DNA from: a virus | Length of the DNA stretch: 64,000 nucleotides | Strand: one strand, 5' to 3' | Virus record (IMG/VR): IMGVR_UViG_3300020411_001722 | Span: 1-64,000 of that record | Shown here: positions 9,001 to 38,953 of the stretch, one piece after another | How the letters are laid out: each line of letters starts with the position of its first letter | How positions within the stretch are numbered: position 1 is the stretch's first letter | Notes under the pieces: generated by a model | Told to the model about the DNA's origin: nothing | The model's database searches: none | The model's input: only the letters and a program-made list of their open reading frames with translations | Program-made: the position numbers and the translations under genes

Positions 9001-11438
9001 TCAGTACCCTCAATGATAGAAATCACGTTTTCTATCAATGCAGACGCATCTCCCACATTAGGATCGACTTCATCTGCAGTTTGAGTCAATTGACCATCAA
9101 TAAGGTTTAAAGGATCACCCTCAATTAGACTTGCACGAAGAATTGTGTCAACTACCCAAGTTGCAGCAGAAGGAGATATAACTTCATCCTTTGGATAGTA
9201 AACATCAACCTGTTCACCGAATAAAATCTTGAATAAGAACTGCGAAGCGGTTTTAGTACCCTTAGAAACGTAGAAATCACGAATCTTCTTGATAACCTGT
9301 ACAGGATTGACTTTTGTGTAATCTACATTAAGCGTAGGTAGGTATTGCCGACGCAATTTGTCAAATACCTGATAAATGAAGAGTGTATCAATAGAAGTGA
9401 TTGCGCTACCAGCACTATGATTGCTTAAACGTAAATCTGCCTCTGTTGCAAAGATCTGATTACCGTAATTATCATATGAAATGGTTCCACTAGTACCACG
9501 CACACATCCTACTAATGCAGAAGGTTTATATTCTTGTCCCGCAGTTGTTATATCAAATCCTGTAACTTCATCAAACCCTACATCAACAGAAGAACGTGCT
9601 GCAGCAGGTTCCGCAATATAAACCTTTGGTGGATTAGCAGGATCATACTTTGTACCAAAATTAGTAATACTAATATCAGTAATCTCACCATTAAAGATAG
9701 TTGCAACCGCAGTTGCGCCAGAACCACCTATTGCTACTCCAGCAGCATCCTTTCTATCATCTACAATGTATACAGATGGCGCATCTGTATAACCAGTACC
9801 ACCAGTTAATAGTTCAATATCCGTAACTTCACCGCCACCTATTACAGTACCATCTACATCTAGTAATTGATCCGTAACAGTTACACCCAGTACTTGCGCA
9901 CCAATTGGTTGAATAATACGTGCTCTAGGAGGTGTTAGATATCCTCTTCCCCTATTAGTGATTATGACACTAGAAATCTGTCCTTCTGGAGTTAATAGTG
10001 TAGAGGCAGCTGCCTGTATTCCTCCTACTGGTGGTGGATCTATGTAAATGTATGGAGGATTTTCATATCCTTGACCATTTTTACCTGCAGGTATAGTAAT
10101 ACTTCCTACAACAAGTCTACCTTCCGAATCAATAGTAGGATCAGTAATTTCTGCTCCACCAGGATTCTTAAATGATACAGAAGGTACAAAATCATACCCA
10201 GAACCAGAATTAGTGATAGTAACACTAGAAACCAATCCAGTAGCATCATCAACTGTTAATGATGCAGTTGCCTGAGTACCATTAGGGTTACTTGGGGGTG
10301 CAATTTCAATACTTGGTGGGTTATATGTTGTATATCCTTGTCCACCATCAATTAACTGTATATCTTTAACACCACCAACTAGAGTACGTGCTGTAGCACC
10401 AACACCACCAAGGTCAGATGGTGTAATAGTAACCTTTGGTGCAAAATCTAGACGATAACCACTACCACCCTCTTTAACAATAAGGTCAATTAACGCACCA
10501 GCATCATTAACACTAGAAACAACTTCAGCACCAGATCCAACAGCAAGTGAGGTATACTCAATTGATCGAATATGGATTGTCTCTGAAGAAGATAACTCAG
10601 TTCCAATAAATTCTATGTAATTACCATCAGTAGCAGTCTCATATAGGACATAATCAGTATATGCTTCTAAGAACTGACCATTCCTATTAACAAACAAACC
10701 AATCGCTGATACAGGAGTATAGAACCCTGCATTAAAACGAAGTTTATGTGTTTTAGACGCATCAATAGGTGTGATGGTATCTAAGGTATCGATAACAGTA
10801 CCAGCAAACCCAACCATATAAACGATAGAGGTTGATGCAATATTATCAGTACCAATTCTTGCTCTAGGTGTCGTTAAGAAGCGAATATTACTACCTTCTA
10901 TAACGTAGTCTGTACCAGGTATCTGAGCAATTCCATAAACCCTTACAAGAAGGTGTTCTGCTGATACTGGTGTAACTGGTTCTCCTAAAAACCTTAATGG
11001 GAATGTATTTTCTACTCCATCAAACTGACTGAATGGCGATTCTAAGGTTTGTCTCTTCTTATTGAATTCATTAAGTGAAATGCCAGGTGTCAAAATAGCA
11101 TCAGGACCCCTAGTGATGCTTTCATAGTAAATTACTTCATTATCAATGAGAACGCTTCCATCATTCTCAACAAAACCATCAATTGACTCTACTTCTATTA
11201 ACGACTCATCAAATCCTATATTTTTTAAAAGTGTTGTCCCTGCAGATAACGTTTTCGATGTATATGAATCAACATCAAGGTATAGATTGATGTTGTTTAG
11301 TATATCGTAAGGCTTACCAGTCTTTTCCTGTGACTTATAATATTCAAACAGAAAATTGACAAATTGTTGGTCTTCCTCTCTAATAAAGTCGGGTACTTGG
11401 TACTTGACCCTATCAGAAACACTTATGTTTTTACGCAT
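1..11438 (-). CDS. Giant repeat-rich virion protein, 3' part cut by window edge
   Basis: One open frame runs from an ATG at 11438 to the left edge without a stop, so more than 3800 residues are visible and the C-terminus is missing. The start lies 3 nt after the gp6 stop (TAA GAG ATG). The N-terminus begins MRKNISVSDRVKYQVPDFI and continues with a segment rich in FxNFLFEYYKSQEK-like sequence, a type I recall from large virion proteins beside gp6 in marine T4-like phages. Next come about seven GxGYxxxP beta repeats (9640-10530), a globular region, five more (7400-7990), a region resembling beta-propeller strands (about 5040-5800), eight short LRGG repeats, nine 73-residue repeats, and a LamG-like segment (about 1630-2200). 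The architecture fits a long baseplate-attached fibre or host-contact protein; the exact role is inferred. The frame was read directly in several stretches, including 1-2500, and was open throughout. Confidence 0.85.
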   Translation of the reverse strand, partial: MRKNISVSDRVKYQVPDFIREEDQQFVNFLFEYYKSQEKTGKPYDILNNINLYLDVDSYTSKTLSAGTTLLKNIGFDESLIEVESIDGFVENDGSVLIDNEVIYYESITRGPDAILTPGISLNEFNKKRQTLESPFSQFDGVENTFPLRFLGEPVTPVSAEHLLVRVYGIAQIPGTDYVIEGSNIRFLTTPRARIGTDNIASTSIVYMVGFAGTVIDTLDTITPIDASKTHKLRFNAGFYTPVSAIGLFVNRNGQFLEAYTDYVLYETATDGNYIEFIGTELSSSETIHIRSIEYTSLAVGSGAEVVSSVNDAGALIDLIVKEGGSGYRLDFAPKVTITPSDLGGVGATARTLVGGVKDIQLIDGGQGYTTYNPPSIEIAPPSNPNGTQATASLTVDDATGLVSSVTITNSGSGYDFVPSVSFKNPGGAEITDPTIDSEGRLVVGSITIPAGKNGQGYENPPYIYIDPPPVGGIQAAASTLLTPEGQISSVIITNRGRGYLTPPRARIIQPIGAQVLGVTVTDQLLDVDGTVIGGGEVTDIELLTGGTGYTDAPSVYIVDDRKDAAGVAIGGSGATAVATIFNGEITDISITNFGTKYDPANPPKVYIAEPAAARSSVDVGFDEVTGFDITTAGQEYKPSALVGCVRGTSGTISYDNYGNQIFATEADLRLSNHSAGSAITSIDTLFIYQVFDKLRRQYLPTLNVDYTKVNPVQVIKKIRDFYVSKGTKTASQFLFKILFGEQVDVYYPKDEVISPSAATWVVDTILRASLIEGDPLNLIDGQLTQTADEVDPNVGDASALIENVISIIEGTDVIYELAISEETLTGNFIIPYKTKLVEYLSQTDQIITVDSTIGWPERNGTIRLNDVEQVQYKERSLNQFIECTRSKNSIVEDWDPGTIVQSEIYVYVNKGLPTECKLRILGIAEAGSTLLDDTGSYYLEGDKLTVAALGSSEADKKLDSWLYNVKKLIRVDSVNPGGDNNQTATIVTSNPHGLLVEDLVTVYGANPTVYNGTFQVTARLDDYTFSYQMLAPTDIIPQGNILLSVDLNRGKSDISSINTAVTPFTSNVQNTFFNKEYVYVAATGLPNYKVGPFTGTALIPGNQRKLLRFPRVVTTVSKRETIAPNSPIGTWVNGVSIWSYKSSTFVRYGPITSIEILNGGTGYDAGSKPNLEITGGGGTGAAAEVVVNGSLFSIEVDTGGTGYTTQPLVSVVGGGGTGATAQAVITGGRVSRVLVEQPGTGYTSQPLISITGGNGTGATATAQVRGPIQSVILSSGGSGYTSLPDVKLNSGEGALAQPIVINGRIVSIAIINSGNGYTTAPNVVINGDGFGSVAKAVIGTIGEDKGKVTTIQILNKGINYTQGLTTIRLEAVGENSEFQSNVFQWTQNLQHNLSSNYDFARGYVFTGYNNQFGGEYAHLVDPKELRYVVGDNVFLDPQTNTFQEVAQNNEHSPILGWAFDGNPIYGPYGYIDPTDQNSGLRRLRTSYRLKDALVYEIDSNPTPTRGDGPPLPPIVNGAEQSPAPEGTYPAGSFVDDYEYAFQLGDLDIYNGRFCKTPDYPDGTYAYFVTIDESNSGVALFPYILGPQFYSQPDTWNLSQEATQDNIPSGVVRYRDPYANVDIDVDRAPNKEPDTITTELEGYPIILEIQDTNNDGLIDSNEQLESIPITEESTLQIYDYFPTVSTESRVDIEVETTTKFESAQIDGFVIENPGVSYQVQDVIFFDNTGTDGFGASAEVSSVEGITILGYSKLIEDDIVYGKITTTSNHDLSVGDEVIVSSTVIPDNTNKKYYTKVVSGIEDIAISQTGVGYNEQIPPTYELIAESGQDALISIDVTQTGQANKVNITNSGNSYSTANPPQIRVSHPQVFKKTRYFFDEYKESTSSFNVKHSIQSSLRYTYVCGSVTKPDGTESAWIAKFDDLGDLIWDRTLEPISGTIKTARYNNMYLDERGENDIIYVIGETEYDNVSANFAPDILLVKYESGFDNANSPEGQVMYQKEIAGVSGVTRRDYGMGVTLGEDERVYICGYTDTNSPDPDDMWVIQLNENGEMREKRKFSSEDDDERMYQVHYLGNSTYQFVGMNMTDYYILLGEFWFDGSNIEINYVKNINPSGGRPQNPRFTIDEYDDLYLVWDIYNNAAQKNSAVGLAKLPRTQINANNPVWDFYRILAPSVTFESIRHADIGIDIFGNIVLITDVKYAENDRKVGLNYIKFDGTMIKQSTIESVGTVGLQAKSHVIDNSGDVITISNKQVSDQVASYRFNGTTDTGAGGFIASIDTITGTSATRGAGVASVGSISGADQQRATNIGNLTTGVGADLRRGGVIQTTGNQSQAEVLRAGTVSTVNNISGADALRGGAVNTVDNISAADPLRGGVVGTVDTIGAAAQRRGGRITLMSNISAANTLRGGKILSIGNVSGPNGLRTPGQYNAVTWSSAANGQTAVFNIDIQSNGQPVINIVNGGISFAINETITVADSQLGGGGAPDVTFDVASIGGFSYTNVSATSTDGASTGNNAAFDVNVSSTGDVSLVINDGGIGYYNTETLSIADSAIGNSGAPNVTFDVSGLGGFQYNNVATTNSGNGNNALKLNVTIDGSGAATAVTVGNNGGLAYAVDNTITIADSVLGNNGAPALTCDVATIVAPQTYSGVAATSTTGNGSGATFDVTIDANGAVTLAVATAAGLGYAEDDQLQIQDSNLGNSGAANIDFQVNTLKAPPLYSNVPTSTNGSGTGCTFQVTINTDGSVANLNVTNPGNGYQAGDTLTIADANVGNNGAAAITCNVATVSGGALYNGVAPLSTTGNGAGGTFDITVDSSGAITSLVIANAGRGYAVGEVITIADASIGNRGAANFTFEVTGTQGITYSGITAWSTNGSGINAVFDVVIDNLGAFTTLTATNRGQNFALSNQVTILDSTLGGQGAGALVMDVASIQGHQYNGVAPTSNGNGENATFNITIDGSGAASAITVVNPGQEHQLGNVFTVTDAQIGNFGGANLTFDVATLQAIQYTNISAAGGSGVNASINVNVAANGATTIEMNKTGRNYKASEVLTVTDSQVGNYGYSDITFNIASVINVFDQTKQNNGTASLYNATNAIIDGTIKKFGTDSIKFQAENHYSITDLNLNGKEWTLQAWFRIESSIHTAANSYPTFFFTEPNDASNPSNELRLFIDGDQTSGDYGKVKIAAAGVEVMETASATIWTNFAADAWVHIAFVKDEPTLGNFTYTVFSNGTQIGQWSTTTDIPIDNVYVGGLLTPTATTSLLGNVDDFVVDATAQYTGSSFTVPTEEIAVRTNNNSIALVKLDREHLKRGTYTLSGLSDHTSAIIAEDTNWTYNSTTGPVVTNWTIGPGGLQILDYSDVNSQLTPGTYTFDNDPFVYGSKTSTVPTPGGKKLKISPVVTPKYYMKDASYTKIDSVQKMVFNQDVKFTKGTILQQYNDSDVVGAFGTIVEVPEGEIATPGLGNTYKVGKIYPAGATFNTTDKFKTTTAADTASNVISDIVFTAERVEAEWKAATAYTAGDVVYANGKFYSATTNATSGPNRPSHSTGNQSDGGVSWDYTSNATDALELDLANTAYPVPREPAWKQLVIHEIGDLVYNGRQLYKCTVSGRTSKVAPTHTTGTATDGTVTWEWQKTFDPLSNYARFKTFDPAEAYYQIQVNEIYHDSNSIVNDSLSLGGTITVNPKVDEPTVLQINNINSIKKVTIQAILDKTILLTTGGQTRTEDVYCVANSRHNFDAGNILFTEGFSTNEFNGSFFVKEVFSSRDFTFTTRAIPSAEPAFVNGSIARVDIYTKHPTLMLTRNHNYIFDMSDSSNVG
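1630..2200 (-). other. LamG / concanavalin A-like segment in the giant protein
   Basis: Within the giant frame, a stretch of about 190 residues has the pattern of a laminin-G-like jelly roll: DSIKF near its start, then WTLQAWFRI, a strand ending LRLFIDG, AWVHIAFVK, and NVYVGG followed by GNVDDFVV. This order (small strand, W-T-x-x-x-W-F, D-G, W-x-H-x-A, D-D-F) is typical of LamG-type domains, which often bind carbohydrate. The call rests on pattern recognition, not alignment. In a tail protein it would suit binding of host surface glycans. Confidence 0.5.
2235..4176 (-). repeat. Nine tandem 73-residue (about 219-bp) coding repeats
   Basis: The codon for the Asp of a conserved IADS/IADA-like motif recurs at plus-strand positions 4014, 3795, 3576, 3357, 3141, 2922, 2706, 2493 and 2286. 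The spacings are 219, 219, 219, 216, 219, 216, 213 and 207 bp. Each unit reads approximately: YxxV followed by a small-residue loop, GxxAxFxVxIDGxG, a short strand, NxGxGYxxGExxTIADS, xxGNxGAxxxTFDVA. All spacings are multiples of three and the reading frame is kept. The units drift in sequence and length toward the C-terminal end. The pattern of alternating strands and Gly/Asn turns suggests a beta-rich fibre built from stacked modules. Confidence 0.85.
4185..4640 (-). repeat. About eight short (about 19-21 residue) LRGG repeats
   Basis: Just N-terminal to the 73-residue repeats, the giant protein contains about eight short units of the form NISGADxLRGGxVxTVD. Clear examples are ISGADALRGGAVNTV, ISAADPLRGGVVGTV and ISAANTLRGGKILSI. 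The period is about 57-66 bp. The last unit leads directly into the first 73-residue unit through a linker of the form GKILxI...GLRTPGQYN. Confidence 0.75.
7400..7990 (-). repeat. Five GTGYTSxP beta repeats (period about 115-124 bp)
   Basis: Five copies of the motif G-x-G-Y-[TD]-x-x-P followed by a GGGGTGATA-like loop occur with the GY codons near 7950, 7834, 7710, 7596 and 7483. Examples are GGTGYTTQPLVSVVGGGG and PGTGYTSQPLISITGGNG. Such Gly-rich strand-turn repeats are common in phage tail and baseplate-associated proteins. Confidence 0.75.
9640..10530 (-). repeat. About seven GxGYxxxP beta repeats, N-terminal set
   Basis: Seven diverged copies are seen: GGSGYRLDFAP, GGQGYTTYNPP, GSGYDFVP, GQGYENPP, GRGYLTPP, GGTGYTDAP and FGTKYDPANPP. 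Spacing is irregular, about 110-150 bp. The units carry more Pro and fewer poly-Gly loops than the set at 7400-7990, so the two arrays diverged separately or arose independently. Confidence 0.65.
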
Positions 11439-26603: not shown

Positions 26604-27158
26604 TTAGGGCACATTGCTTAATCCTTTTGGATCATGCTCATCTAGTGTGTAGTTTAGATGCCAAATGTATCCTAGACTATACCTAACTGGTGATTTAGTA
26701 GGTGGTAGTCCTTGATGCCATATTGTAGAGTTGAATAAGATCAATCTACCTTGCTTAAATGGTACTCTATAAGTCTCCTCTAGTTCTGTATTATAGAATA
26801 CAGTGTCACCATCACCTACTACTTGATAGATGCCACTGATCCTTGTGTTACTATTAGAATCAGTATGTGGTTGTGCATTTAGTCCTTGTGTCTGACAATT
26901 AAGTAAACACCTATCTAAATGATCTATTTTATAATCTAATAGTATATCATTACATACACATTGATGTAAGTAATCAATAAAGAAAAAGGGTGGACATGGT
27001 GCCACCCATACTTCTCTTTCTACTAAATTACAACCAAAAAACCTACTTGTTTCATAGTCACCATAAGGTGAGTTAGTATATGTAACAGGTACAATAGGTA
27101 TTTCAGATGCAACCTTATCTATTAACCAATCTGGTAAGTAACCATCAATAACTTTCAT
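26604..27158 (-). CDS. 2OG-Fe(II) oxygenase (184 aa)
   Basis: The product has a full set of prolyl-hydroxylase-like motifs. HTD in QPHTDSNSNTRISGIYQ is the first iron ligand pair, WHQG is the distal His, and Arg in SPVRYSLGYIW is the 2-oxoglutarate ligand. GRLILFNSTIWHQGLPP is a typical family strand. It should couple oxidation of an unknown substrate to 2-oxoglutarate decarboxylation. It follows the helicase gene after 3 nt and differs from the PF13759-type group at 30-35 kb. Confidence 0.8.
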   Translation of the reverse strand: MKVIDGYLPDWLIDKVASEIPIVPVTYTNSPYGDYETSRFFGCNLVEREVWVAPCPPFFFIDYLHQCVCNDILLDYKIDHLDRCLLNCQTQGLNAQPHTDSNSNTRISGIYQVVGDGDTVFYNTELEETYRVPFKQGRLILFNSTIWHQGLPPTKSPVRYSLGYIWHLNYTLDEHDPKGLSNVP

Positions 27159-29508: not shown

Positions 29509-29849
29509 TAGCGTTTTTTGACTGGTGGTAACATGTCATTTCCTGGATGATCTCCTACAGGTCTCCAGTAATTACGTTTGTTTTGGAAGTGTTGATCCTC
29601 AATTTCAAGTTCATCCCAAGCACACTCAGGACATACAACATTAACCTCATTCCATTTACTTTTAGCATGTTGAGCAACCTCTGGTGGTTTCTCCCAACGG
29701 TGAATACATATGGTTATGTACTCGTCACTTATGAAATTAATATAACCTTCTTCACCTCTCCAGCGTACTCTTCTACCCTTTTCGAGTGATTTAAGAATGT
29801 TCCTTAACTCCAACGCAACTGCCTCCGATAATAGAATAGGTATGGTCAT
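29508..29849 (-). CDS. Conserved hypothetical protein (113 aa)
   Basis: The product contains GRRVRWRGEEGYINFISDEY, ITICIHRWEKPPEVAQHA and VVCPECAWDELE. The pattern of a small beta domain with R-W-x-G-x-x-G-x-I-x-F and a C-terminal W-x-E-L is familiar from cyanophage proteins of unknown role. It overlaps its neighbours on both sides by TAATG, so it is co-translated with the methyltransferase and may work with it. Confidence 0.65.
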   Translation of the reverse strand: MTIPILLSEAVALELRNILKSLEKGRRVRWRGEEGYINFISDEYITICIHRWEKPPEVAQHAKSKWNEVNVVCPECAWDELEIEDQHFQNKRNYWRPVGDHPGNDMLPPVKKR

Positions 29850-30385
29850 TATGTCAACTTAATGTAACGGTTCTCTAACTCTGGTGGAATCGGATCTGTC
29901 TCACCTATGAATATATCCATTGCCATACTGATCCGTATATTATCTGTAGGATTCTCAGGTACACCATGCTGCATCTCACTAGGAAATACTGTCATCTCAC
30001 CTATACAGTTCTTATACTTCACACGCTCATACCACGTGCCTATCTCAGGGTCACCACGTAAGAATATATTAGCAGAGGTGTGACCTCTACCATGTGCATG
30101 TGGTTTAATACCTTCACCCTTCCTAAATGTATTTGCCCAACACTGAACAGTACATTTACCAAAGATTGCAATTAACTTAGGTACAACAATAGATTTAACT
30201 GGATCATCCTTTAAGTAGTTATAACACCAATGCCTACCAGATAATGAGTCAGGTGCAACTTGACCTTTACCTTTAAATACATCATCACCCATTGCTTTAA
30301 CATCATCCTCAATGTCAAGTATATGGTCAGCAATAATATTACTCTCAATAGAGGTTAAGAAATCGTAAGAAGTAATAGCAGTCAT
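29849..30385 (-). CDS. 2OG-Fe(II) oxygenase-like protein (178 aa)
   Basis: Putative ligands lie in KPHAHGRGHTSANIFLRG (His residues in an H-x-H context) and in MQHGVPEN (distal His), with Arg in DNIRISMAM for 2-oxoglutarate. The acidic first ligand is not the usual HxD, so activity is uncertain, although a family of phage oxygenase-like proteins shares this layout. It is coupled to the upstream PF13759-like gene through ATGA and to the downstream gene through TAATG. Confidence 0.65.
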   Translation of the reverse strand: MTAITSYDFLTSIESNIIADHILDIEDDVKAMGDDVFKGKGQVAPDSLSGRHWCYNYLKDDPVKSIVVPKLIAIFGKCTVQCWANTFRKGEGIKPHAHGRGHTSANIFLRGDPEIGTWYERVKYKNCIGEMTVFPSEMQHGVPENPTDNIRISMAMDIFIGETDPIPPELENRYIKLT

Positions 30386-31011
30386 AATGTTAGTAAATTA
30401 GTAAAGTCTCCATATGAACCATCCAACCAATAATTAAATGCTACAGAGTAACGGTGTTCATGTGATGTATTAGGTGCAACTGAATGTACACATGTAGATG
30501 GAAATAATGCTATCAATCCGTTTCTAGGTTTTATTGCCCATTCACTAGAATTTAATAGATTCATCTCATTTAATTTTGGCATGAATACTGGACTAATATA
30601 TGTTGGGTGATTAGTATCATTATGAAATGATAAATTACCTGAATTCTCATTGCATTGAATATATATTACCCCACTATAAAGACTATGAGCATGACTGTGA
30701 CTATGTGCACTATCACCATTTAAATGTCTAGTTGCCCATGAGCATGTATGTCTCAATGTATATTTTCTATCTACTGATAATTCACCATGTACAAAGAAGT
30801 CTAAATGTTTCTCAACTATTGCTCTAAGTTCTGGTATATTTTCTAATACTGTTTGACTCTCTGTACATGCACCATTATATTGTTTAATATCATCAATATA
30901 ATCTAAATCTTTAACACGTTGGAGTATTTCTGGTGTGATTATATCTTGTGCAAGATATAATGGTGTGGAGAACATAGGCATGATCTCCCATTTATCTGAG
31001 GGTGGTTTCAT
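30382..31011 (-). CDS. PF13759-type 2OG-Fe(II) oxygenase (209 aa)
   Basis: The product shows the family's FSTPLYLAQ near the start, AHSHSHAHSLYSGVIYIQ as the metal-binding strand, NSGNLSFHND, GLIALFPSTCVHSVAPN with the distal His, and HRYSVAFNYWL with the Arg ligand. This family is putative 2OG-Fe(II) oxygenases with largely unknown substrates. It is the last of four such genes here. The upstream 49-aa gene's stop overlaps its ATG. Confidence 0.8.
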   Translation of the reverse strand: MKPPSDKWEIMPMFSTPLYLAQDIITPEILQRVKDLDYIDDIKQYNGACTESQTVLENIPELRAIVEKHLDFFVHGELSVDRKYTLRHTCSWATRHLNGDSAHSHSHAHSLYSGVIYIQCNENSGNLSFHNDTNHPTYISPVFMPKLNEMNLLNSSEWAIKPRNGLIALFPSTCVHSVAPNTSHEHRYSVAFNYWLDGSYGDFTNLLTL

Positions 31012-31157
31012 AATATACGTTGTGCTAATGATCTAGCATGTGCATTGTGTTCAAGTAATTTGTGCATCCATATTCTCTCTTCGAGAGTAACAGTACGTTG
31101 CAACTTAATTCTATATAATATTTCACATAACCTCAACCTATATTCCCTGCTTAACAT
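31008..31157 (-). CDS. Small basic hypothetical protein (49 aa)
   Basis: ATG at 31157, inside the end of the upstream oxygenase gene, gives MLSREYRLRLCEILYRIKL followed by VTLEERIWMHKLLEHNAHA and RSLAQRIL. Its TGA overlaps the ATG of the next oxygenase as ATGA. The amphipathic helical pattern and LEERIW motif resemble small conserved cyanophage proteins. Function is unknown. Confidence 0.7.
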   Translation of the reverse strand: MLSREYRLRLCEILYRIKLQRTVTLEERIWMHKLLEHNAHARSLAQRIL

Positions 31158-31797
31158 AATTCCAATCTGGTTCTCGATATGAATCCATTATTAATCGTCT
31201 AGTAGGTGCACTAAAGTCACCACACAACATAATATTAAAACCTAGAGAATATCTATCCTCAGTATTATTATTAATACCAGTATAATGATCTACATGAGAT
31301 GGAAAACATACAATCATACCATTCTCAGGTCTAATATTCCATTTACGACTGTTCTGTATATTATCCTCCCACACTGGTGGATCTAATGTACCTGTATTCC
31401 ATGTAGCATGATTATATGATGCTTCAAATATAAGATCCCCACTATCTTCTGGAACATCAAGATATAAACAACCAGTGAACATACTATTTGTATGTCCATG
31501 TCTATTAGCACTATGACCTGTAGGATGTTTGTTAACCCAACTACACACAATATCCATGTGCATATGATCCTCAATTGCTAAGAATTTATAGATATATTCT
31601 GCACAATGTTCAATGCAAAGTTGTTTTAAATCTGGATATTTCTCCAGTATTTGTTCATCAACTGTACAACTTCCATCTAATTGTTTAGGATAGTCATGAT
31701 ATTCTTCATTCTTGATATCATCAAGAGTTTTTCTTGATATTCTATTTTCATATGTTCTAACCGATAATGGTGTAGAAAATAGTGGGAATACTTCCAT
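31138..31797 (-). CDS. PF13759-type 2OG-Fe(II) oxygenase (219 aa)
   Basis: Family features: PLFSTPLSVRTYE at the N-terminus, GHSANRHGHTNSMFTGCLYL as the metal strand, DSGDLIFEAS, MIVCFPSHVDHYTGINNN with the distal His and DRYSLGFNIML with the Arg ligand. It is closest in layout to the 209-aa protein next to it, suggesting a local duplication with the 49-aa gene between. It starts 1 nt from the stop of the 71-aa gene. Confidence 0.8.
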   Translation of the reverse strand: MEVFPLFSTPLSVRTYENRISRKTLDDIKNEEYHDYPKQLDGSCTVDEQILEKYPDLKQLCIEHCAEYIYKFLAIEDHMHMDIVCSWVNKHPTGHSANRHGHTNSMFTGCLYLDVPEDSGDLIFEASYNHATWNTGTLDPPVWEDNIQNSRKWNIRPENGMIVCFPSHVDHYTGINNNTEDRYSLGFNIMLCGDFSAPTRRLIMDSYREPDWNYVKQGI

Positions 31798-32012
31798 TAT
31801 GTTTCTGGATGTCTGTGTACATTCTTAAGTGGTGAATCATACCGTAGATGCAGCACTTCACCTATTTCCATGATATAATCCTTTTCTTCCTGTGTTAGTT
31901 CACCATGCTTCTGGTGTAAATCCTTAATCAGTAATAATACTGCTTTCTTAAGCAATCCCTTAGCACCCTTTGTAATATATGGACTATGAAGTCCTAAAGG
32001 ATAAGTTGTCAT
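31797..32012 (-). CDS. Small conserved hypothetical protein (71 aa)
   Basis: The frame opens at 32039, but the ATG at 32012 is preferred because GGGAG lies about 9 nt before it and the promoter -10 at 32040-32045 abuts the upper start. The product begins MTTYPLGLHSPYITKGAKG and is a basic-then-acidic helical protein with LTQEEKDYIMEIGEVLHLRY. I do not recognise a function. Confidence 0.65.
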   Translation of the reverse strand: MTTYPLGLHSPYITKGAKGLLKKAVLLLIKDLHQKHGELTQEEKDYIMEIGEVLHLRYDSPLKNVHRHPET

Positions 32013-32039
32013 AGTGTAACTCCCAGTGTTTTGACCCAT

Positions 32040-32067
32040 ATTATATCTATAAGAACCCCCCAGTCAA
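32040..32067 (-). promoter_or_regulatory. Strong sigma70-like promoter inside the oxygenase cassette
   Basis: Minus strand: TTGACT (32062-32067, 5 of 6 of the -35 consensus), 16 nt spacer, then perfect TATAAT (32040-32045). It lies in the short gap between the JmjC-like gene and the 71-aa gene, and it would drive the left half of the cassette independently of the late promoters. Confidence 0.75.
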
Positions 32068-32777
32068 ATGTTTATGTTGGTAAGAGTATATTCCCTACGA
32101 TCTGACTGTGGCATATCTAAACCATGCCACAACGGAATACTCATACTCAAACGAGCATTTTTGGACGGATGGGCACAGTGATAACTGCGGGATGGTATGT
32201 ATATCATATCACCTGGTGTCAAGACCACATCCATTAATGGTTCACCTAAGTATGATTCATCACCATTGAATATAAATGAACCATGTTTAATCAGTGTGCT
32301 ACACCTCTCATTATATACTTTCCAGTGTGTCTCACCTATGAGTTGCATAATAAAATTTGATGGTTGATCCCAGTGTATATTAAATGACTTAGATCCCTTA
32401 CCAGTAGCACCATACAAATGTATATCACAATGTATATCAAATGTTTTCTCTATTTTATCTAACAACTCATCACAATGTCTATTGTGGTGACCATACATTC
32501 CTATAACAAATGTATCATTATTATTAACATGTTTAAATATCTCATCTTTCCTAGGATGTTGAGCATTTAACCATGTTTCTGTTGCTTGTGCAAGATGAAC
32601 CTTATTACTCTTCTTATCTAATATTTCAACATGATAGTTCCAAGGATTGTTGAGACAATCCTGTACATCCTTCCATGTAGCATAGTCCTCTGGTGTGTCG
32701 CATACCTTCTCAAATACTAAAGGTACATCACCAACATAATAATGTTCAGGATTTAGAAAGGTAGTTGAAATGGACAT
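32064..32777 (-). CDS. JmjC/cupin-like oxygenase (237 aa)
   Basis: The C-terminal half has a cupin core: FNIHWDQPSNFIMQLIGETH with the HxD iron ligands, WKVYNERCST, LTPGDMIYIPSRSYHCAHPS with the distal His, and SMSIPLWHG. This is the pattern of JmjC-type hydroxylases of the Cupin_4/ROXA group, many of which hydroxylate proteins. A GAGGAGGG ribosome binding site stands 3-4 nt before the ATG, which lies inside the end of the upstream gene. Confidence 0.8.
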   Translation of the reverse strand: MSISTTFLNPEHYYVGDVPLVFEKVCDTPEDYATWKDVQDCLNNPWNYHVEILDKKSNKVHLAQATETWLNAQHPRKDEIFKHVNNNDTFVIGMYGHHNRHCDELLDKIEKTFDIHCDIHLYGATGKGSKSFNIHWDQPSNFIMQLIGETHWKVYNERCSTLIKHGSFIFNGDESYLGEPLMDVVLTPGDMIYIPSRSYHCAHPSKNARLSMSIPLWHGLDMPQSDRREYTLTNINI

Positions 32778-33499
32778 TTACCCTCCTCATCTTTATTCAA
32801 TCTGTTCATAATAATACTCCATGATTTAAATGGTTGCCAGTCCTTAAACTCTCTGTCTTGCCACAATCTTCTAACCATGTCCTTACCTTCAGGTATAGAT
32901 CTCTCTAACCTGAAATCACTGGTCTTATGTGGCATGTCATCAAAGAATCGAACAGTACATAATGGTTCACCACGTCTAATAAGTATATCCTTATCAAAAG
33001 TCTTAATGACCATACCTATAGTCATAGGTCTTAACCAATTTGATATTGGAAAATGACCTGACACTACTTCAAAATTATGTTGTGATGGGTGTCCAGTAAA
33101 CTCTACCCATACCTTCTTATGCTTAGTCCAGAATAAATGTAAGTATTGTATCTCTACCTCTGGATACTCTCCATCCCACCATCCATTTCTAACTTGAAAT
33201 AATCTATTAAACTGATCCTGACCATTACATTTATCAGAACCAATCATCTTATTCGTACTATCAATACGAAAATGTATATCAATAGGTGTATACAATGTAT
33301 ATCTATTCTTCATCCAACTCTTATTTGCTGGACAATGATAGTGGTCATGTGTATTGTCTAGATCATCCCTATGTGGTGTAGGTTCAATAATATAATCATC
33401 AGGAAATGTAGGACGTTGAAAATCCTCCCAACCTGAGATACCCAACCTACCTTGTGTACTATCAGGGATAGTTGATGTCCAATTAATTACTTTACTCAT
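32753..33499 (-). CDS. DUF6065-like protein A (248 aa)
   Basis: The Met at 33499 is preferred over that at 33514 because it overlaps the upstream stop in the style of its neighbours (ATGAGTAA). The product shows CPANKSWMKNRYTLYTPIDI near residue 57, VEFTGHPSQHNFEVVSGHFP in the middle and IRRGEPLCTVRFFDD near the end. The layout (CP, W, P-x-D, a G-H beta strand and an RG-x-P-L-C-x-V end) resembles the uncharacterised DUF6065 family and the 239-aa protein at 35263. The family name is a guess from memory. Confidence 0.5.
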   Translation of the reverse strand: MSKVINWTSTIPDSTQGRLGISGWEDFQRPTFPDDYIIEPTPHRDDLDNTHDHYHCPANKSWMKNRYTLYTPIDIHFRIDSTNKMIGSDKCNGQDQFNRLFQVRNGWWDGEYPEVEIQYLHLFWTKHKKVWVEFTGHPSQHNFEVVSGHFPISNWLRPMTIGMVIKTFDKDILIRRGEPLCTVRFFDDMPHKTSDFRLERSIPEGKDMVRRLWQDREFKDWQPFKSWSIIMNRLNKDEEGKCPFQLPF

Positions 33500-34169
33500 G
33501 TGCGTTACCATCAATCCACATAGTAGTTGCCTTTGGATCTAGACCACGTTTAACTATAAGATTAAATGCTAATGATATACGTTCCTCATCAGTATTATTT
33601 GTTGATACATCATGTGGAACCCAACCAGGAAATAATATAAGTTTATTTACCATTGGTGGATATGTATAAGAACCCCAAGTACATGGTGTATCACCTTTAC
33701 TACCAGTAGAATAAGATCCCATACTTTTATATAAATGTGTCTCTAACAGATTACGTCTCACACTTAAACTACCACAGTCACCCTCTGGTACTTGTATATA
33801 AGTAGCACCACCAAATACAACACCAGGATGTGTATGAACTGATATCTTATCGCCAGGTGGTGTGAATACAAACCAGAAATTATCCATCTCAACATGTGAG
33901 TTGAATGGTGCCATATCATAATAACATTCCTTTGCTTTAGTCTCAACCTGATCGATCATATCACCTACAGGGCAAGAATGACCACGATAATCATCTGCAT
34001 TAAGATATTTTGATTCGTAACTTCCACCATCCATTTGAGTGAGTGCATCAACAATACGTCTATCACCTCTCACCTCACGTTGTGACTGTGCAAAGTCAAG
34101 TAGACCTTCAATCTGAAGATCTATATCACCATGCCACACTGGTGTTGGAAATAAGAATTCACACTCCAT
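33492..34169 (-). CDS. PF13759-type 2OG-Fe(II) oxygenase (225 aa)
   Basis: The ATG at 34169 (MECEFLFPTPVWHGDI) is chosen because LFPTPVW is the family's normal N-terminus. Ligand motifs: KISVHTHPGVVFGGATYIQV, GDCGSLSV, KLILFPGWVPHDVSTNN and ERISLAFNLIV. The HTHPG metal strand matches the next protein upstream (HTHPGSVLSG), so the two are recent relatives. They form the second pair of such genes. Confidence 0.85.
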   Translation of the reverse strand: MECEFLFPTPVWHGDIDLQIEGLLDFAQSQREVRGDRRIVDALTQMDGGSYESKYLNADDYRGHSCPVGDMIDQVETKAKECYYDMAPFNSHVEMDNFWFVFTPPGDKISVHTHPGVVFGGATYIQVPEGDCGSLSVRRNLLETHLYKSMGSYSTGSKGDTPCTWGSYTYPPMVNKLILFPGWVPHDVSTNNTDEERISLAFNLIVKRGLDPKATTMWIDGNAHE

Positions 34170-34836
34170 AATGTTTAGCAACCTCTCCAAAATATGCTGA
34201 CTCATTCTCTATTTGAGGAGTCAAATTAAATGATACTGATATACGATCTTCTACATTATGACCTGCTTCTACACCATGTGGTAACCATGCAGGGAAGAAC
34301 ATTAAACGACCAGCGACAGGTGGATATGCCATCTGACTCCAACACCAAGGTGTATCCTCACCACCTTCACATGATGACTGCATGACACCAGCAGATGCAA
34401 AGAGAAAAGCAGATGTATGATCCCTATGGAATATTAAATCACCACTATCAGGTGGTGTTTTAACATAATATACACCAGACAATACAGAACCAGGATGTGT
34501 ATGAGTTACATTATAATCTCCACTATTAGAGTTATTAATGTTCATCCATATATTTGCTAACCTGACGTTACAACCCCAAGGTTTAAACCTAGCATGTATA
34601 TCTTCACCTAATGCTTTAATTCTTCTTGCTAAATCACCTAACGCATGGTCAGAATCCAGCATGTCCTCACCATCAAAATCAGGTGATTGAAAACCACCTA
34701 CATTTGATCTGGACATGCCCTTACCTTTATCTCTTACACTATAACAAAATGAGGCAATTGCGTCATTATCAACATCTAACTCTGTCCACCATATAGGTGT
34801 AGGAAAGAGTAATTCCTCCATCAAGTTGTCTGCCAT
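34159..34836 (-). CDS. PF13759-type 2OG-Fe(II) oxygenase (225 aa)
   Basis: Family motifs: LLFPTPIWWTELDV, NVTHTHPGSVLSGVYYVKTP, DSGDLIFHRDHTSAF, RLMFFPAWLPHGVEAGHN and DRISVSFNL. All expected metal and co-substrate residues are present. It starts by TAATG overlap with the upstream gene and shares the HTHPG strand and overall length with the gene downstream. Confidence 0.85.
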   Translation of the reverse strand: MADNLMEELLFPTPIWWTELDVDNDAIASFCYSVRDKGKGMSRSNVGGFQSPDFDGEDMLDSDHALGDLARRIKALGEDIHARFKPWGCNVRLANIWMNINNSNSGDYNVTHTHPGSVLSGVYYVKTPPDSGDLIFHRDHTSAFLFASAGVMQSSCEGGEDTPWCWSQMAYPPVAGRLMFFPAWLPHGVEAGHNVEDRISVSFNLTPQIENESAYFGEVAKHYGV

Positions 34837-35270
34837 TACACACCAGTTTTAACATCTGGTGCATTTGGATCAGGTACCCAATCTGCTAGATCTTCAAAAC
34901 CTGCTTTACCTTTAACTCTAACCTTTGGTGATGGTTTCTTAGGTATCTCTACATATGTCCTTGCTTCTTCACCCTTAACCTGTGTTAGAAACAAGTTCAA
35001 TGCATCAAGACCACCTTCAAGTTTAACCACTTCATCTCTTAATGATTGTACTTCTCTAAGGTCAAATGTATTATTACCTTGCTGTGGTTTATTACATATT
35101 GCATCCACCTGACTCTTAAGAACCAAATACCTATCATATTTAATAGCGTGTTGTGCTTTAAGATTTTCAAACAACTGATCAAATGTAATTAGATCAGTTT
35201 CCTCTCTTGGTGCCAGATCAGGATCATTTTTGAGTTCTAGATCTTCAATCTTGGTTACTTCTTCAGTCAT
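34836..35270 (-). CDS. Coiled-coil hypothetical protein (144 aa)
   Basis: The Met at 35270 is chosen: it overlaps the upstream stop (ATGACTGA), whereas the Met at 35309 needs a longer overlap. The product starts MTEEVTKIEDLELKNDPDLA and has a long amphipathic helix from about residue 32 to 105 (LRDEVVKLEGGLDALNLFLT). It ends in a Lys/Pro/Asp-rich tail. No family is recognised. It may serve as a scaffold or adaptor for the enzymes around it. Confidence 0.6.
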   Translation of the reverse strand: MTEEVTKIEDLELKNDPDLAPREETDLITFDQLFENLKAQHAIKYDRYLVLKSQVDAICNKPQQGNNTFDLREVQSLRDEVVKLEGGLDALNLFLTQVKGEEARTYVEIPKKPSPKVRVKGKAGFEDLADWVPDPNAPDVKTGV

Positions 35271-35982
35271 AATAGTTCTTAATAATTTTTGAGTTGTTTC
35301 TAACGACACTGGGTGTGTCAGGTTTGAATTTAGTATCCATACTATAATTTATAGCATTTTCAAACCTCATATCTTTAGCAGTTGCATCTTCTACAACATA
35401 GTCCCAAGATCTTATTGAATCTCTAAGAATAGGTGTGAGTTGTAAGAGTGGTGTTCCCGCCTCAATTAAGGTTTCTCCCTCCTTAATATGCCAGTATAGT
35501 TGTGCATTTAATTGTGGAACCTTAGATGGATCTAATAGACCTGTTGCTGCGGTAAACCGTTTCTCTCCATTATATAGCACTGGAGACTGTATGAATACTA
35601 TGTCTTTACGTGCTGACACCCTCCAAGTAGTACCAATCTTAATTACAGAATTAATACTATTAGGTGGTGCTGAAGATTTTGCTTGCTTACCATCATGTAC
35701 ACCAATAAATCCTGAATCACTATCAAGTAGAGTTGGTGCTTCCCAATCTACTGACTCCATATCACCATTGGTCTTGATTATTAAATCACATGGCATAGGT
35801 AATATAAAACCTAGATTACCATATAATTTAATACCTGGGCATTTACTGGCATGTTTCTGCTTAGTAGCATGTTCACATGCACCAATACTCCTCTTTAACT
35901 TAGTTGCAGGGATTATTGGGTGGCAATCCTTGACACCAGGGCAAGTTGACCAAAATCTAATTGGTGGTTTCTTCTTGAACAT
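35263..35982 (-). CDS. DUF6065-like protein B (239 aa)
   Basis: The product contains PPIRFWSTCPGVKDCHPIIP near the start, LYGNLGFILPMPCDLIIKTN (Leu/Pro-rich core), and HIKEGETLIEAGTPLLQLTP near the end. The same order of Cys-Pro, a hydrophobic P-x-D strand and an E-x-G-T-P-L ending is seen in the protein at 32753. It overlaps the halogenase stop by 26 nt and would be translated with it. No catalytic residues are obvious. Confidence 0.5.
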   Translation of the reverse strand: MFKKKPPIRFWSTCPGVKDCHPIIPATKLKRSIGACEHATKQKHASKCPGIKLYGNLGFILPMPCDLIIKTNGDMESVDWEAPTLLDSDSGFIGVHDGKQAKSSAPPNSINSVIKIGTTWRVSARKDIVFIQSPVLYNGEKRFTAATGLLDPSKVPQLNAQLYWHIKEGETLIEAGTPLLQLTPILRDSIRSWDYVVEDATAKDMRFENAINYSMDTKFKPDTPSVVRNNSKIIKNYYD

Positions 35983-37525
35983 TGTATATGTTATCCAATA
36001 AGTATTGCCAAGACGATTTACATCCGTTGATGTATTCTAACGCTTCTGCCTGTGCTTTGTCAACTACCTTATCCCACTCCTCAACTGGTGCTTCACCATA
36101 TTTAAAAGTCTTATGCTTCATTCCTATAGATCTAAGAGGTGAATAGTTATTACCAGCAAGTACATATAAATCTCCTGCAAATTGTTCAGGAAAATCATAA
36201 GTCTTATACTTACATACACTTAGATCTCTAAAAGGATTATCCTCTGGATGTGGCATATTTGTATGATCTCGATGATAATCAATATCCTCAGTCACATGCC
36301 TCCAATACTTTGTATCTCTACGCATTGAAAATGCATAATGCCATGCAATAAAGTCAGAGAAACCTTCCATCTCTCTACTTGCTGCTTCATTAAATAAATC
36401 CTTTTCAATACTACCTATAACACCCTCACGATTCTCTAGAGTACCAATCAATCTGATTATATTCTCATGTGTTGTTAATAATCCTGTTGATTCTAATGGT
36501 TCTAAGAAACCATATGATAACCCAATCGCTACAACATTCTTATACCATGCTGACTCATGCTTACCATTTTTAATATCAATAGTCTTTAACTCAGGTGGCA
36601 TATAATGTGGATATACTTCCTCTATATGCTCACGAAATTCTTTCTCTGCACCCTCTTGATCCTGATATAAATCAGACCAAACATATCCTGCACCAGTTCT
36701 ATTCCATAAAGGAACACTCCATGCCCAACCATTACCTAAAGCATATCCATTAGTAAAGTTCTTTACTTCACCTGTATCATCACCCCAATGAGGTATTCTA
36801 CACACTGTTGCTTTATTATTAGGAAGAATATCTTTATATGAATGATGCTTCACACACATATATTCTTCAAGTAACAGTGATTTAAATCCTGTACAATCAA
36901 TAAACAAATCTGCTGTGAAATCACCAGCAGATGTCTTTAAGGTTTCAATACCTCTATCAGACTCAGTAAAATCTAATACATCTGCTGATACATGTTTAAT
37001 ATTCTTACATACATTATTCTTTAACCACTGACCAAACTTAATTGAATCCATATGATAAGAATAATCCTTACCAAAGGAACCCCACCTACCCTCACTATCT
37101 AATTTATTCTCTTCCATTAGCAAGGTATTACCATTTACTAACCTTGCAAAGGTATTAGGATTACCATACTTTTCTGGATATGCATCTCTCAAATACCAAA
37201 AAGTTTGTAATCCTGCTGGTAATGATTCATCAGATGGTTCAACAAATGGATAATCCCAATATGTACCATCATTCTTATAGAAATTAGTAAATCTTATTCC
37301 TACCTTATAGGTAGCATCACATTCTTGCATCCACTCCTTATCTTCTATTCCAAGAAGTCGCATGAAAAAATTAATATGCCCCAAAGTAGATTCCCCGACT
37401 CCTATGGTAGGAACGTTCGGGGATTCTATTAGAGTTACATTGTAGTCAGGGAGCATCCTTTCAAATGCTGCTGCGGTCATCCATCCAGAGGATCCACCGC
37501 CCACGATAATAACATTACGAATCAT
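35957..37525 (-). CDS. Flavin-dependent tryptophan-halogenase-like enzyme
   Basis: The 522-aa product has all hallmark motifs of the PrnA-type family. GGGSSGWM binds FAD at residues 9-16, and GVGESTL lies at 42-48. The catalytic Lys sits in ATYKVGIRF near residue 74, and the diagnostic WxWxxP motif is WAWSVPLW. LSYGFLEPLESTGL matches the family's Glu-Pro-Leu-Glu-Ser segment. These enzymes use reduced FAD, oxygen and halide to halogenate aromatic carbons. A marine cyanophage member (VirX1) has been characterised and prefers iodide, which suits a seawater setting. A flavin reductase is not seen in the window. Substrate is unknown; specificity for free Trp is not shown. It is followed by the oxygenase cassette. 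Confidence 0.92.
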   Translation of the reverse strand: MIRNVIIVGGGSSGWMTAAAFERMLPDYNVTLIESPNVPTIGVGESTLGHINFFMRLLGIEDKEWMQECDATYKVGIRFTNFYKNDGTYWDYPFVEPSDESLPAGLQTFWYLRDAYPEKYGNPNTFARLVNGNTLLMEENKLDSEGRWGSFGKDYSYHMDSIKFGQWLKNNVCKNIKHVSADVLDFTESDRGIETLKTSAGDFTADLFIDCTGFKSLLLEEYMCVKHHSYKDILPNNKATVCRIPHWGDDTGEVKNFTNGYALGNGWAWSVPLWNRTGAGYVWSDLYQDQEGAEKEFREHIEEVYPHYMPPELKTIDIKNGKHESAWYKNVVAIGLSYGFLEPLESTGLLTTHENIIRLIGTLENREGVIGSIEKDLFNEAASREMEGFSDFIAWHYAFSMRRDTKYWRHVTEDIDYHRDHTNMPHPEDNPFRDLSVCKYKTYDFPEQFAGDLYVLAGNNYSPLRSIGMKHKTFKYGEAPVEEWDKVVDKAQAEALEYINGCKSSWQYLLDNIYNVQEETTN

Positions 37526-37532
37526 AAATCAA

Positions 37533-38114
37533 TTAGTTGTAGTCTTCGTCTTTCTCCTCTCTTGGTAATACTGGTTCAGTTTCAGCATTGTCCCATTTAC
37601 ATCCATCACCTTCAACCATATATTTTACATAGGTTTGGTACTGTTTGTCAATCTTTAATGAAGGATACTCTGCTTCTGCCTCTTCACGAGTCCACCATGC
37701 AGGTATTAAATCATTGTGTTCCCAAGGTTGGTATGGATCCCAAGGTTTTCCAGTTTCAGGATCGATCTGGATGTCACCATACTTCTCTTTTGCTTCTATC
37801 TTTACAGATTCAATTGCTCTAAAGAATTTACCTTTCTTAGCATCCTCACCAAATAGTCCATCCTTTATATCATCATAGATACGTGCAAGTTGTGAACCCT
37901 GATCACCATATCCTACAACTCTTGCTTGTAATGGATCTACGTGGTTATGATTTGGAATCCACTCATTGAATTCCATTTTCCAGTCGAGTGTTACCTCGTC
38001 AGGTGCGTCTACCCAATGGAGTTTAGCACCAGGACCAGTATATACATCAAACTCATCTCCAGGTTCGACGATATCTGTTATATGTCCAGATTGTTGAATT
38101 AATGCTCTTTTCAT
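37533..38114 (-). CDS. Tail-associated hypothetical protein (193 aa)
   Basis: The 193-aa product has a small N-terminal beta domain (GDEFDVYTGPGAKLHWVDAP), then a segment ARVVGYGDQGSQLARIYDDI followed by KDGLFGEDAKKGKFFRAIES. This segment resembles XkdW-like and tail-fibre-assembly helical pieces that usually read Y-G-S-I-G-D-Q-L-D-x-x-Y-H-D-I. The C-terminus is acidic. It lies between the adhesin genes and the halogenase, 2 nt from the former. A tail-assembly role is inferred, not shown. Confidence 0.55.
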   Translation of the reverse strand: MKRALIQQSGHITDIVEPGDEFDVYTGPGAKLHWVDAPDEVTLDWKMEFNEWIPNHNHVDPLQARVVGYGDQGSQLARIYDDIKDGLFGEDAKKGKFFRAIESVKIEAKEKYGDIQIDPETGKPWDPYQPWEHNDLIPAWWTREEAEAEYPSLKIDKQYQTYVKYMVEGDGCKWDNAETEPVLPREEKDEDYN

Positions 38115-38115
38115 T

Positions 38116-38919
38116 TTAGTTAAAGTTGTAGACTACGATGTAACCTTGACGACCATTTCCACCTCGCTCACTGTTACGTCCTGATGAACCACCAGCACCC
38201 CAAGCAGCGTGTGATCTATAGTTGTGTGCCCACTGTTGTTGGAAGTGTGATGTTGGTGCAGCACCACCCCAGAAGGAAGTACCACCAAATCCCATACCTG
38301 GTTGGGAGTTCTTGTGACCATCACCTGATCCACCGTAAACCTGTACAGCACCCTGATTAGGTGATCCACCTAATGAACCTGAGTGTTGTCTTTGTCTGTT
38401 AGCACCCTGTCCACCACCAGATGAACAATAGTTACCGAATGATGAGGTACCACCGTTACCACCTTGAGATGAATATCCAACACCATTACCTTCACCACCA
38501 ACAGTAACGTTGATTGAGTTTATATTCGATACATCAATAATCTGTTCAGTATGTGCACCAGCACCAGCAGTTTCACCATAACCTGATGAACCACCGCCAC
38601 CACCTGTACATTTGACCCAAATCCTCTTAACTCCAGAAGGTTTGTTCCATGTAGTGTTGTTATTATATGTGTTAATAGAAATCGGTCCACCACCACCTTG
38701 AACAGTTCCCCATGACATGTTAGTGCCGTCTGTGGTCAAATACTTACCTGCTTGACCAGACTGTGATGGGATAATTTGTCCAGATGAACCACTGATAGTA
38801 CCATTGATTTGCAGGTTTGTAACCGTCAATGTACCATTCGCAGTTATACTTCCACTAGAAAAGGAAAATCCACCTTGTCCAGCGAGGTCTTTAACCGATG
38901 CAACTTTTAGGGTACTCAT
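38116..38919 (-). CDS. Glycine-rich tail fibre / adhesin (267 aa)
   Basis: The N-terminus has a typical marine-phage fibre start (MSTLKVASVKDLAGQGG, then SGSITANGTLTVTNLQING and GKYLTTDGTNMSWG). The C-terminal half is glycine-rich (GGGGGSSGYGE, GGEGNGVGYSSQGGNGG) and resembles the tips of gp38-like adhesins, which pack poly-Gly helices. A strong late promoter, TATAAATA, lies 27 nt upstream. It is the last adhesin before the halogenase operon. Confidence 0.75.
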   Translation of the reverse strand: MSTLKVASVKDLAGQGGFSFSSGSITANGTLTVTNLQINGTISGSSGQIIPSQSGQAGKYLTTDGTNMSWGTVQGGGGPISINTYNNNTTWNKPSGVKRIWVKCTGGGGGSSGYGETAGAGAHTEQIIDVSNINSINVTVGGEGNGVGYSSQGGNGGTSSFGNYCSSGGGQGANRQRQHSGSLGGSPNQGAVQVYGGSGDGHKNSQPGMGFGGTSFWGGAAPTSHFQQQWAHNYRSHAAWGAGGSSGRNSERGGNGRQGYIVVYNFN

Positions 38920-38945: not shown

Positions 38946-38953
38946 TATTTATA
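38946..38953 (-). promoter_or_regulatory. Perfect T4-type late promoter
   Basis: Minus strand TATAAATA, identical to the T4 consensus, 27 nt upstream of the ATG at 38919. It would serve the adhesin and the cassette leading into the halogenase. Confidence 0.8.

Follow-up and report, generated by a model that had tools for sequence, protein, structure and literature searches.

The minus strand of the IMG/VR virus record IMGVR_UViG_3300020411_001722, a 79.6-kb virus fragment from a T4-like cyanophage of which positions 1 to 64,000 were analysed (hereafter, the window of 64,000 nucleotides), encodes a glycine-rich tail adhesin followed by a probable assembly protein (CHA), a flavin-dependent halogenase and a tightly packed series of 2-oxoglutarate-dependent (2OG) oxygenases. 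The best explanation of this gene set, with an estimated probability of about 0.65, is that it constitutes a late-expressed cassette for the halogenation and hydroxylation of the distal loops of the adhesin. The original prediction, made from the sequence alone, proposed a common tailoring pathway for the halogenase and the oxygenases and offered three substrates, namely, a fibre protein encoded upstream, a host small molecule and a surface polymer. The near-obligate co-occurrence of these genes and the integrity of their catalytic motifs support the common pathway. Among the substrates, the upstream fibre/adhesin is clearly the favoured candidate, on the strength of the adhesin-seeded scans, of late promoters that precede the adhesin rather than the oxygenases, and of the recurrence of such enzymes beside other Gly-rich adhesins; we infer that this protein is modified.

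Profile and PHROG searches recover on the minus strand all the genes named in the original prediction, including the halogenase at the start of the block, the JmjC/cupin-like enzyme and a further 2OG oxygenase past the helicase. In the direction of transcription, the locus comprises a fibre-associated protein, two Gly-rich fibre proteins (the second of which is the adhesin), CHA, the halogenase, a DUF6065 relative, a coiled-coil protein, two PF13759 oxygenases, a distant DUF6065-like protein, the JmjC_2 protein, an 80-aa protein and three more PF13759 oxygenases, the last one ending at 29849 (Table 1). The predicted dense packing is borne out by overlaps of 1–47 bp between most neighbours: the first seven genes, counted from the halogenase, overlap by 26, 47, 1, 47, 23 and 25 bp, and further along the cassette there are overlaps of 1, 4 and 1 bp, with gaps of only 24 and 126 bp. 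Six oxygenases are encoded within 29849–37525, and seven if the PF13640 protein past the helicase is counted, in agreement with the expected six to seven; instead of four PF13759 proteins and one 2OG-like protein, there are five PF13759 proteins, all above the curated cut-off.

The gene order is conserved far beyond chance expectation, given that complete cyanophage genomes and the majority of 80 related loci share it. Specifically, in 80 IMG/VR loci found with the halogenase by profile search, the arrangement adhesin (1–3 copies)–CHA–halogenase–DUF6065–coiled coil–PF13759–PF13759–JmjC–more 2OG recurs in most cases. The IMG/VR scans comprise the best 80 matches each and were seeded from cassette-bearing loci, with looser adhesin relatives falling outside the sample, so that the linkage counts hold for this adhesin family rather than for all Gly-rich fibres; the raw counts are also inflated by phylogenetic relatedness. 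The adhesin-seeded scan places a halogenase within 3.5 kb in 63 of 63 loci, and PF13759 and JmjC genes within 8 kb in 56 of 56; the corresponding numbers for the CHA-seeded scan are 70/70 and 62/62. When JmjC is the seed, the halogenase is found in 55 of 56 loci, and the adhesin or CHA is located upstream in all 56. Approximately 36 diverged halogenase lineages are covered by the adhesin-seeded scan and approximately 29 by the CHA-seeded one. Among complete phages, a halogenase is present in all 16 adhesin records and in 20 of the 21 CHA records, the exception being a weak CHA match in S-RIM14. Gly-rich genes concentrate 0–4 kb upstream of the halogenase, and oxygenases 0–4 kb downstream; JmjC is found in none of the seven halogenase loci that lack this adhesin and CHA. 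Thus, a gene-neighbourhood comparison across phages detects no scattering of the homologues.

The cassette occupies two different genome places, between the fibre genes and the helicase/methylase region in Syn10, S-WAM1 and P-TIM40, and before the neck gene in S-RIM44, Sf-FP1 and Sf-FR1, and at both places adhesin genes are located directly 5' of it. Syn30 and S-RIM4 possess a comparable fibre region that lacks this adhesin, and there is no halogenase block there. In S-RIM14 (L177:1-3160, 6387-9264), the weak CHA-like gene follows long unannotated, possibly fibre, genes, with several unannotated genes of 640–720 bp upstream and no annotated halogenase nearby. One contig (L394) encodes the adhesin, CHA, several 2OG proteins and two JmjC proteins; its halogenase gene comes after the first JmjC gene instead of directly following CHA.

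The distribution of putative late promoters is compatible with the expression of the cassette from the adhesin side. The window contains two exact minus-strand matches to TATAAATA, one of which precedes the adhesin (Table 1). In the relatives, TATAAATA is found within 100 bp upstream of 17% of the adhesin genes, 16% of the CHA genes and 6% of the halogenase genes, compared to 0.3% for PF13759, 0% for JmjC, 0 for DUF6065 and 0.3% for random stretches. In T4, a core of this type is an established late promoter, and by analogy TATAAATA would have the same role here. Because it precedes adhesin, CHA and halogenase genes and almost never those of the oxygenases, transcription of the latter appears to proceed by read-through from the promoters of the adhesin.

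The halogenase matches PF04820 with a score of 320 bits (cut-off 21) and retains the flavin adenine dinucleotide (FAD) motif GxGxxG as GGGSSG, Lys74, the WxWx[IV]P motif as WAWSVP, and EPLEST; K74 and the Glu residues are invariant among 11 relatives. The protein is 41% identical over the full length to VirX1 of cyanophage Syn10; it is a VirX1 orthologue and, judging from these sequence features, looks active. The halogenating activity of VirX1 has been assayed, and the enzyme accepts many small aromatics and has an unusually large and accessible active site (PMC8407142). The halogenase also matches four Campylobacter phage records in the phage collection.

The check for lost catalytic residues reveals none in the halogenase, the five PF13759 proteins or the JmjC protein. 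Oxygenases 1–5 score 79.0, 62.4, 64.5, 73.7 and 44.3 bits, respectively, against PF13759 (curated cut-off 27), and H112, H114, H187 and R198 are invariant in 15 sequences that include all five window proteins. The metal-binding motif of this family is HxH, not HxD, as it is also in the solved relatives 2rg4 and 3bvc. The JmjC_2 protein (68.7 bits, cut-off 22) contains the HxD...H triad H135/D137/H200, which is invariant in 36 sequences, and its nearest relatives in the PDB are the histidyl hydroxylases NO66/MINA53 (1e-8). This 237-aa protein extends only about 23 residues beyond the JmjC match, leaving no room for a C-terminal winged-helix domain, and for this reason it is not classified with the ribosomal oxygenases (NO66/MINA53/YcfD). 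The PF13759 and JmjC enzymes are thus predicted to be active. In four annotated cyanophages (L003, L004, L006, L007), several cassette genes labelled 'DNA endonuclease V' (phrog_274) or 'ferrochelatase' resemble 2OG oxygenases, and the PF13640 protein of the window matches phrog_274 as well; these labels probably represent a spreading misannotation.

The AlphaFold model of the adhesin (predicted local distance difference test score, pLDDT, 86) has as its best Foldseek match the fibre of cyanophage Pam3 (E-value 7.5e-9); together with the match to PF21722 above the cut-off, this identifies a Gly-rich distal domain. The Pam3 fibre is a trimer that is assembled with the chaperone gp25 and whose Gly-rich tip, described as hypervariable, is thought to bind the host (PMC9608196). 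In the window adhesin family, much of the tip is conserved, with invariant His and Tyr residues where such tips normally are hypervariable: among 60 diverse sequences, Y149, H179, H202 and H237 are invariant, N174 is nearly so, and H225, H232 and H234 are conserved in at least 95%, while other loop positions vary. Conserved reactive side chains in normally variable loops could be modification sites; alternatively, they could bind metal. CHA is encoded between the adhesin and the halogenase, with a median gap to the latter of 29 bp in 77 non-redundant pairs. No match to CHA was detected in the PDB, and accordingly its probable chaperone role rests on position.

A plausible scenario begins with transcription from the late promoters in front of the Gly-rich adhesin and continues across the genes for the assembly protein, halogenase and oxygenases. 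During or just after adhesin folding, the open-pocket halogenase, supplied with reduced flavin by a host reductase, would halogenate an aromatic side chain. With O2 and 2-oxoglutarate, the JmjC_2 and PF13759 oxygenases would hydroxylate the side chains of other residues in the distal loops, which carry the invariant His and Tyr residues, and the modified tip may differ in binding, stability or cross-linking.

Several observations weigh against the adhesin as the substrate. Linkage is no proof of substrate, and modified residues have yet to be seen. The 60 adhesin sequences contain the NO66 motif NHXH once, against 1.7 occurrences expected, and in view of this lack of enrichment a direct parallel with NO66 was rejected. 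JmjC is missing from 10 of 34 adhesin-bearing cassettes, which also refutes a strict tie of this gene to His-rich tips, and S-B64 (near gp46) and S-H35 encode VirX1-clade halogenases that are not part of such a cassette. Furthermore, the published virion proteome of S-SZBM1 lists fibre proteins 52–54 and not the two adhesins, which would yield at least eight well-sized tryptic peptides, including NQQHDGALGGNPNQGSVR, IYGGSSQGHR, NPPGLGHGGTSFWGGSSPTAHR and DHAAYGAGGSSGR. This absence could mean that modified peptides were missed by the standard search, that the adhesins are present in low copy number, or that they are not in the virions.

Four other explanations were considered. It is unlikely that the enzymes act on a host or surface target, such as an outer-membrane protein, lipopolysaccharide or capsule, e.g., for superinfection block or release, with the proximity to fibre genes reflecting shared host-range evolution. 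Surface-protein substrates are plausible given that bacterial relatives adjoin TonB receptors, and the S-SSM6a cluster adds sugar-related genes; however, this scenario does not require the one-to-one linkage with a single adhesin family and a chaperone-like gene, or their joint relocation, and late expression would leave little opportunity for changing the host surface. Even less probable is a small-molecule pathway producing a halogenated metabolite (antibiotic or toxin) that shields the infected host or kills competitors, as has been proposed for cyanophage prnA (antibiotic protection; PMC2984593, PMC9964418) and for the S-SSM6a cluster (PMC7824862). The acceptance of many small aromatics by VirX1 (PMC8407142) fits this proposal, but the cassette includes no scaffold-building gene (nonribosomal peptide synthetase, polyketide synthase, ligase or carrier), is linked to an adhesin and an assembly gene rather than to host-type metabolism, and has the late-promoter layout. 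Moreover, a genome with many parallel oxygenases is more easily reconciled with numerous sites on one polymer than with a single metabolite, and even the S-SSM6a cluster is located behind two adhesin-like proteins.

Hitch-hiking of functionally unrelated genes in a plastic region behind the fibre genes is very unlikely: 2OG genes do occur at scattered positions in the rest of these genomes, and the region varies, but the order adhesin–CHA–halogenase–DUF6065–2OG–JmjC is kept in ~36 diverged halogenase lineages and at two genome places, the oxygenase genes further downstream have no separate late promoters, and the catalytic residues are conserved. Finally, repair or modification of DNA or RNA by the 2OG enzymes is the least probable explanation. 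It was suggested earlier for cyanophage 2OG genes adjacent to uvsX/uvsY (PMC2984593, PMC3037559; the latter also considers 2OG drawdown), and the methylase and helicase genes just downstream favour it; on the other hand, the enzymes are PF13759 and JmjC_2 proteins, with protein histidyl hydroxylases and not AlkB among their closest solved relatives, and many cassettes have no methylase and helicase beside them.

Table 1. Features of the adhesin-halogenase-oxygenase locus, listed in the direction of transcription (window coordinates)
Feature	Position	Strand	Evidence
Fibre-associated protein (FIB), 288 aa	40684..41550	-	phrog_29506/phrog_7459, weak tail-fibre PHROG match; same family upstream in 25 phage loci
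Gly-rich fibre protein, 569 aa	38968..40677	-	PF12810 Gly-rich domain 4e-6; phrog_4831
T4-type late promoter core TATAAATA (putative)	38946..38953	-	Exact match; 26 bp 5' of adhesin start
Gly-rich tail adhesin (GLY), proposed substrate	38116..38919	-	phrog_863 5.8e-58; PF21722 5.8e-6
CHA, 193 aa, probable tail-fibre assembly chaperone	37533..38114	-	phrog_1787 5e-19
Flavin-dependent halogenase, VirX1 type	35957..37525	-	PF04820 3e-95; PDB 6qgm E 1.5e-115
DUF6065 relative, dUTPase-like predicted fold	35263..35982	-	phrog_7084 1e-40
Coiled-coil protein, 157 aa	34836..35309	-	Open reading frame; relatives at same place in ~19 loci (phmmer)
2OG oxygenase 1 (PF13759)	34159..34836	-	3.8e-22; HxH...H...R intact
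2OG oxygenase 2 (PF13759)	33492..34205	-	5.7e-17; HxH...H...R intact
Second, distant DUF6065-like protein	32753..33514	-	phrog_17480 4.5e-22; phrog_7084 5e-4
JmjC_2/cupin-like oxygenase, 237 aa	32064..32777	-	PF08007 4.5e-19; phrog_8014 3.5e-71
Small protein, 80 aa	31797..32039	-	Open reading frame; relatives in 6 loci
2OG oxygenase 3 (PF13759)	31138..31797	-	1.2e-17; HxH...H...R intact
2OG oxygenase 4 (PF13759)	30382..31011	-	1.7e-20; HxH...H...R intact
2OG oxygenase 5 (PF13759, short, split match)	29849..30385	-	2.4e-11; HxH...H...R intact
2OG oxygenase past helicase (PF13640), loosely associated	26604..27158	-	1.3e-6; same place in S-WAM1 and other relatives

The two DUF6065-like proteins that had been predicted to follow the halogenase are both present but not adjacent: one follows the halogenase, whereas the other, no more than distantly related (hhalign probability of 65% over 33 columns), comes after the second 2OG gene. 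The first protein does not itself match PF19541, although 10 of 56 aligned relatives do, the best with an E-value of 7e-7. Its AlphaFold model (pLDDT 90; as for all the structure models, the alignment consisted of the window and IMG/VR loci) resembles dUTPase (Foldseek E-value 6e-5; VIA Z ~10 over 115–140 residues). The invariant residues C48, H96, W120 and P184 differ from the dUTPase set and, of the dUTPase motifs I–V, inspection by eye reveals only a partial motif III (GxxDPxY). Identification of this protein as SapC was rejected for lack of similarity in hhalign, and as an oxygenase because the model is dUTPase-like; alignment also gave no support for the second 2OG-type gene (gp46 type) of Syn10, S-CREM1 and S-RIM44 being a DUF6065 copy. 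Haloarchaeal tailed viruses (e.g., L008:7755-8597) encode distant DUF6065 relatives near their baseplate genes; the part inspected contains no annotated halogenase. On the 3' side of the cassette are a DNA methylase, a helicase and the PF13640 2OG protein, which, jointly with a 113-aa protein (window 29849–26604), recur behind the cassette in several relatives.

Halogenases are also found beside other surface-associated genes. In Sf-CH1a (L180:6770-12932) and in contigs L067, L078, L084 and L090, a halogenase and 2OG genes are located between or beside a different set of Gly-rich genes, without CHA or JmjC, and the P-SSM2 halogenase has fibre-assembly genes and one 2OG gene as its neighbours. 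In the jumbo cyanophage S-SSM6a (L414:553-2146), two tandem Cys- and Trp-rich proteins (~3.4% Trp) are encoded upstream of a halogenase/carbamoyltransferase cluster that has been proposed to be involved in secondary metabolism or capsule decoration (PMC7824862); by eye they resemble Gly-rich adhesins, but the adhesin profile fails to detect them. In bacteria, a TonB-dependent receptor is encoded in 46 of 80 halogenase loci, a count that comes without a background rate from genomes in which such receptors are abundant. A recurrent bacterial cluster consists of halogenase–SapC–Cupin_8–halogenase genes, at times with DUF6445, beside TonB receptors (L158, L110, L135, L143, L166, L174 and others), and no description of it was found in the open-access literature searched. 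The Cupin_8 and DUF6445 profiles of this cluster match the phage JmjC and 2OG proteins, whereas the SapC profile matched no phage protein.

There is perhaps an even chance that phages possess a dedicated system for halogenating and multiply hydroxylating their own receptor-binding adhesins, that the bacterial SapC clusters are its cellular counterpart, and that the two together form a general class of oxidative surface-protein tailoring. Such a class would explain many PF04820 halogenases that lack a known small-molecule substrate. The biocatalyst VirX1 has been studied thoroughly but has no known role in nature, and few unexplained genes recur in marine cyanophages as often as those of 2OG oxygenases; the tie to a host-binding tip gives both a concrete, testable substrate. 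The open-access literature searched contains no published link between these enzymes and adhesins. If adhesin modification is real, phages chemically edit their host-range protein, adding a layer of variation that is invisible in the gene sequence.

Comparison with known systems places the cassette among several partial parallels. The gene of the iodinating halogenase VirX1 (Syn10, PDB 6qgm) is, as in the window, located between Gly-rich adhesins and 2OG/JmjC genes; VirX1 has been studied as a stand-alone biocatalyst, and the available review passages do not mention adhesin linkage. The S-SSM6a cluster likewise combines a halogenase with 2OG and cupin enzymes behind adhesin-like proteins, but its halogenase is only 29% identical and it includes carbamoyltransferases and sugar enzymes (PMC7824862). 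The bacterial cluster shares with the phage cassette a halogenase, a JmjC/Cupin_8 protein and a 2OG-like protein beside a surface protein, and differs in the presence of SapC and in having no adhesin, DUF6065 or PF13759 expansion. NO66 and MINA53 resemble the phage JmjC protein in their JmjC_2 homology and HxD...H triad, and their known substrates are Gly/His-rich protein loops, but they contain a winged-helix domain and the motif recognized by NO66 is not a feature of the phage adhesin. The adhesin itself finds its closest counterparts in Pam3 gp24, with the chaperone gp25, and in T4-type gp38 adhesins, with which it shares the fold, the Gly-rich tip and an assembly gene directly 3'; the Pam3 tip, however, is hypervariable with no modifying enzymes reported, whereas the window adhesin combines invariant His and Tyr residues with a block of enzymes encoded behind it.

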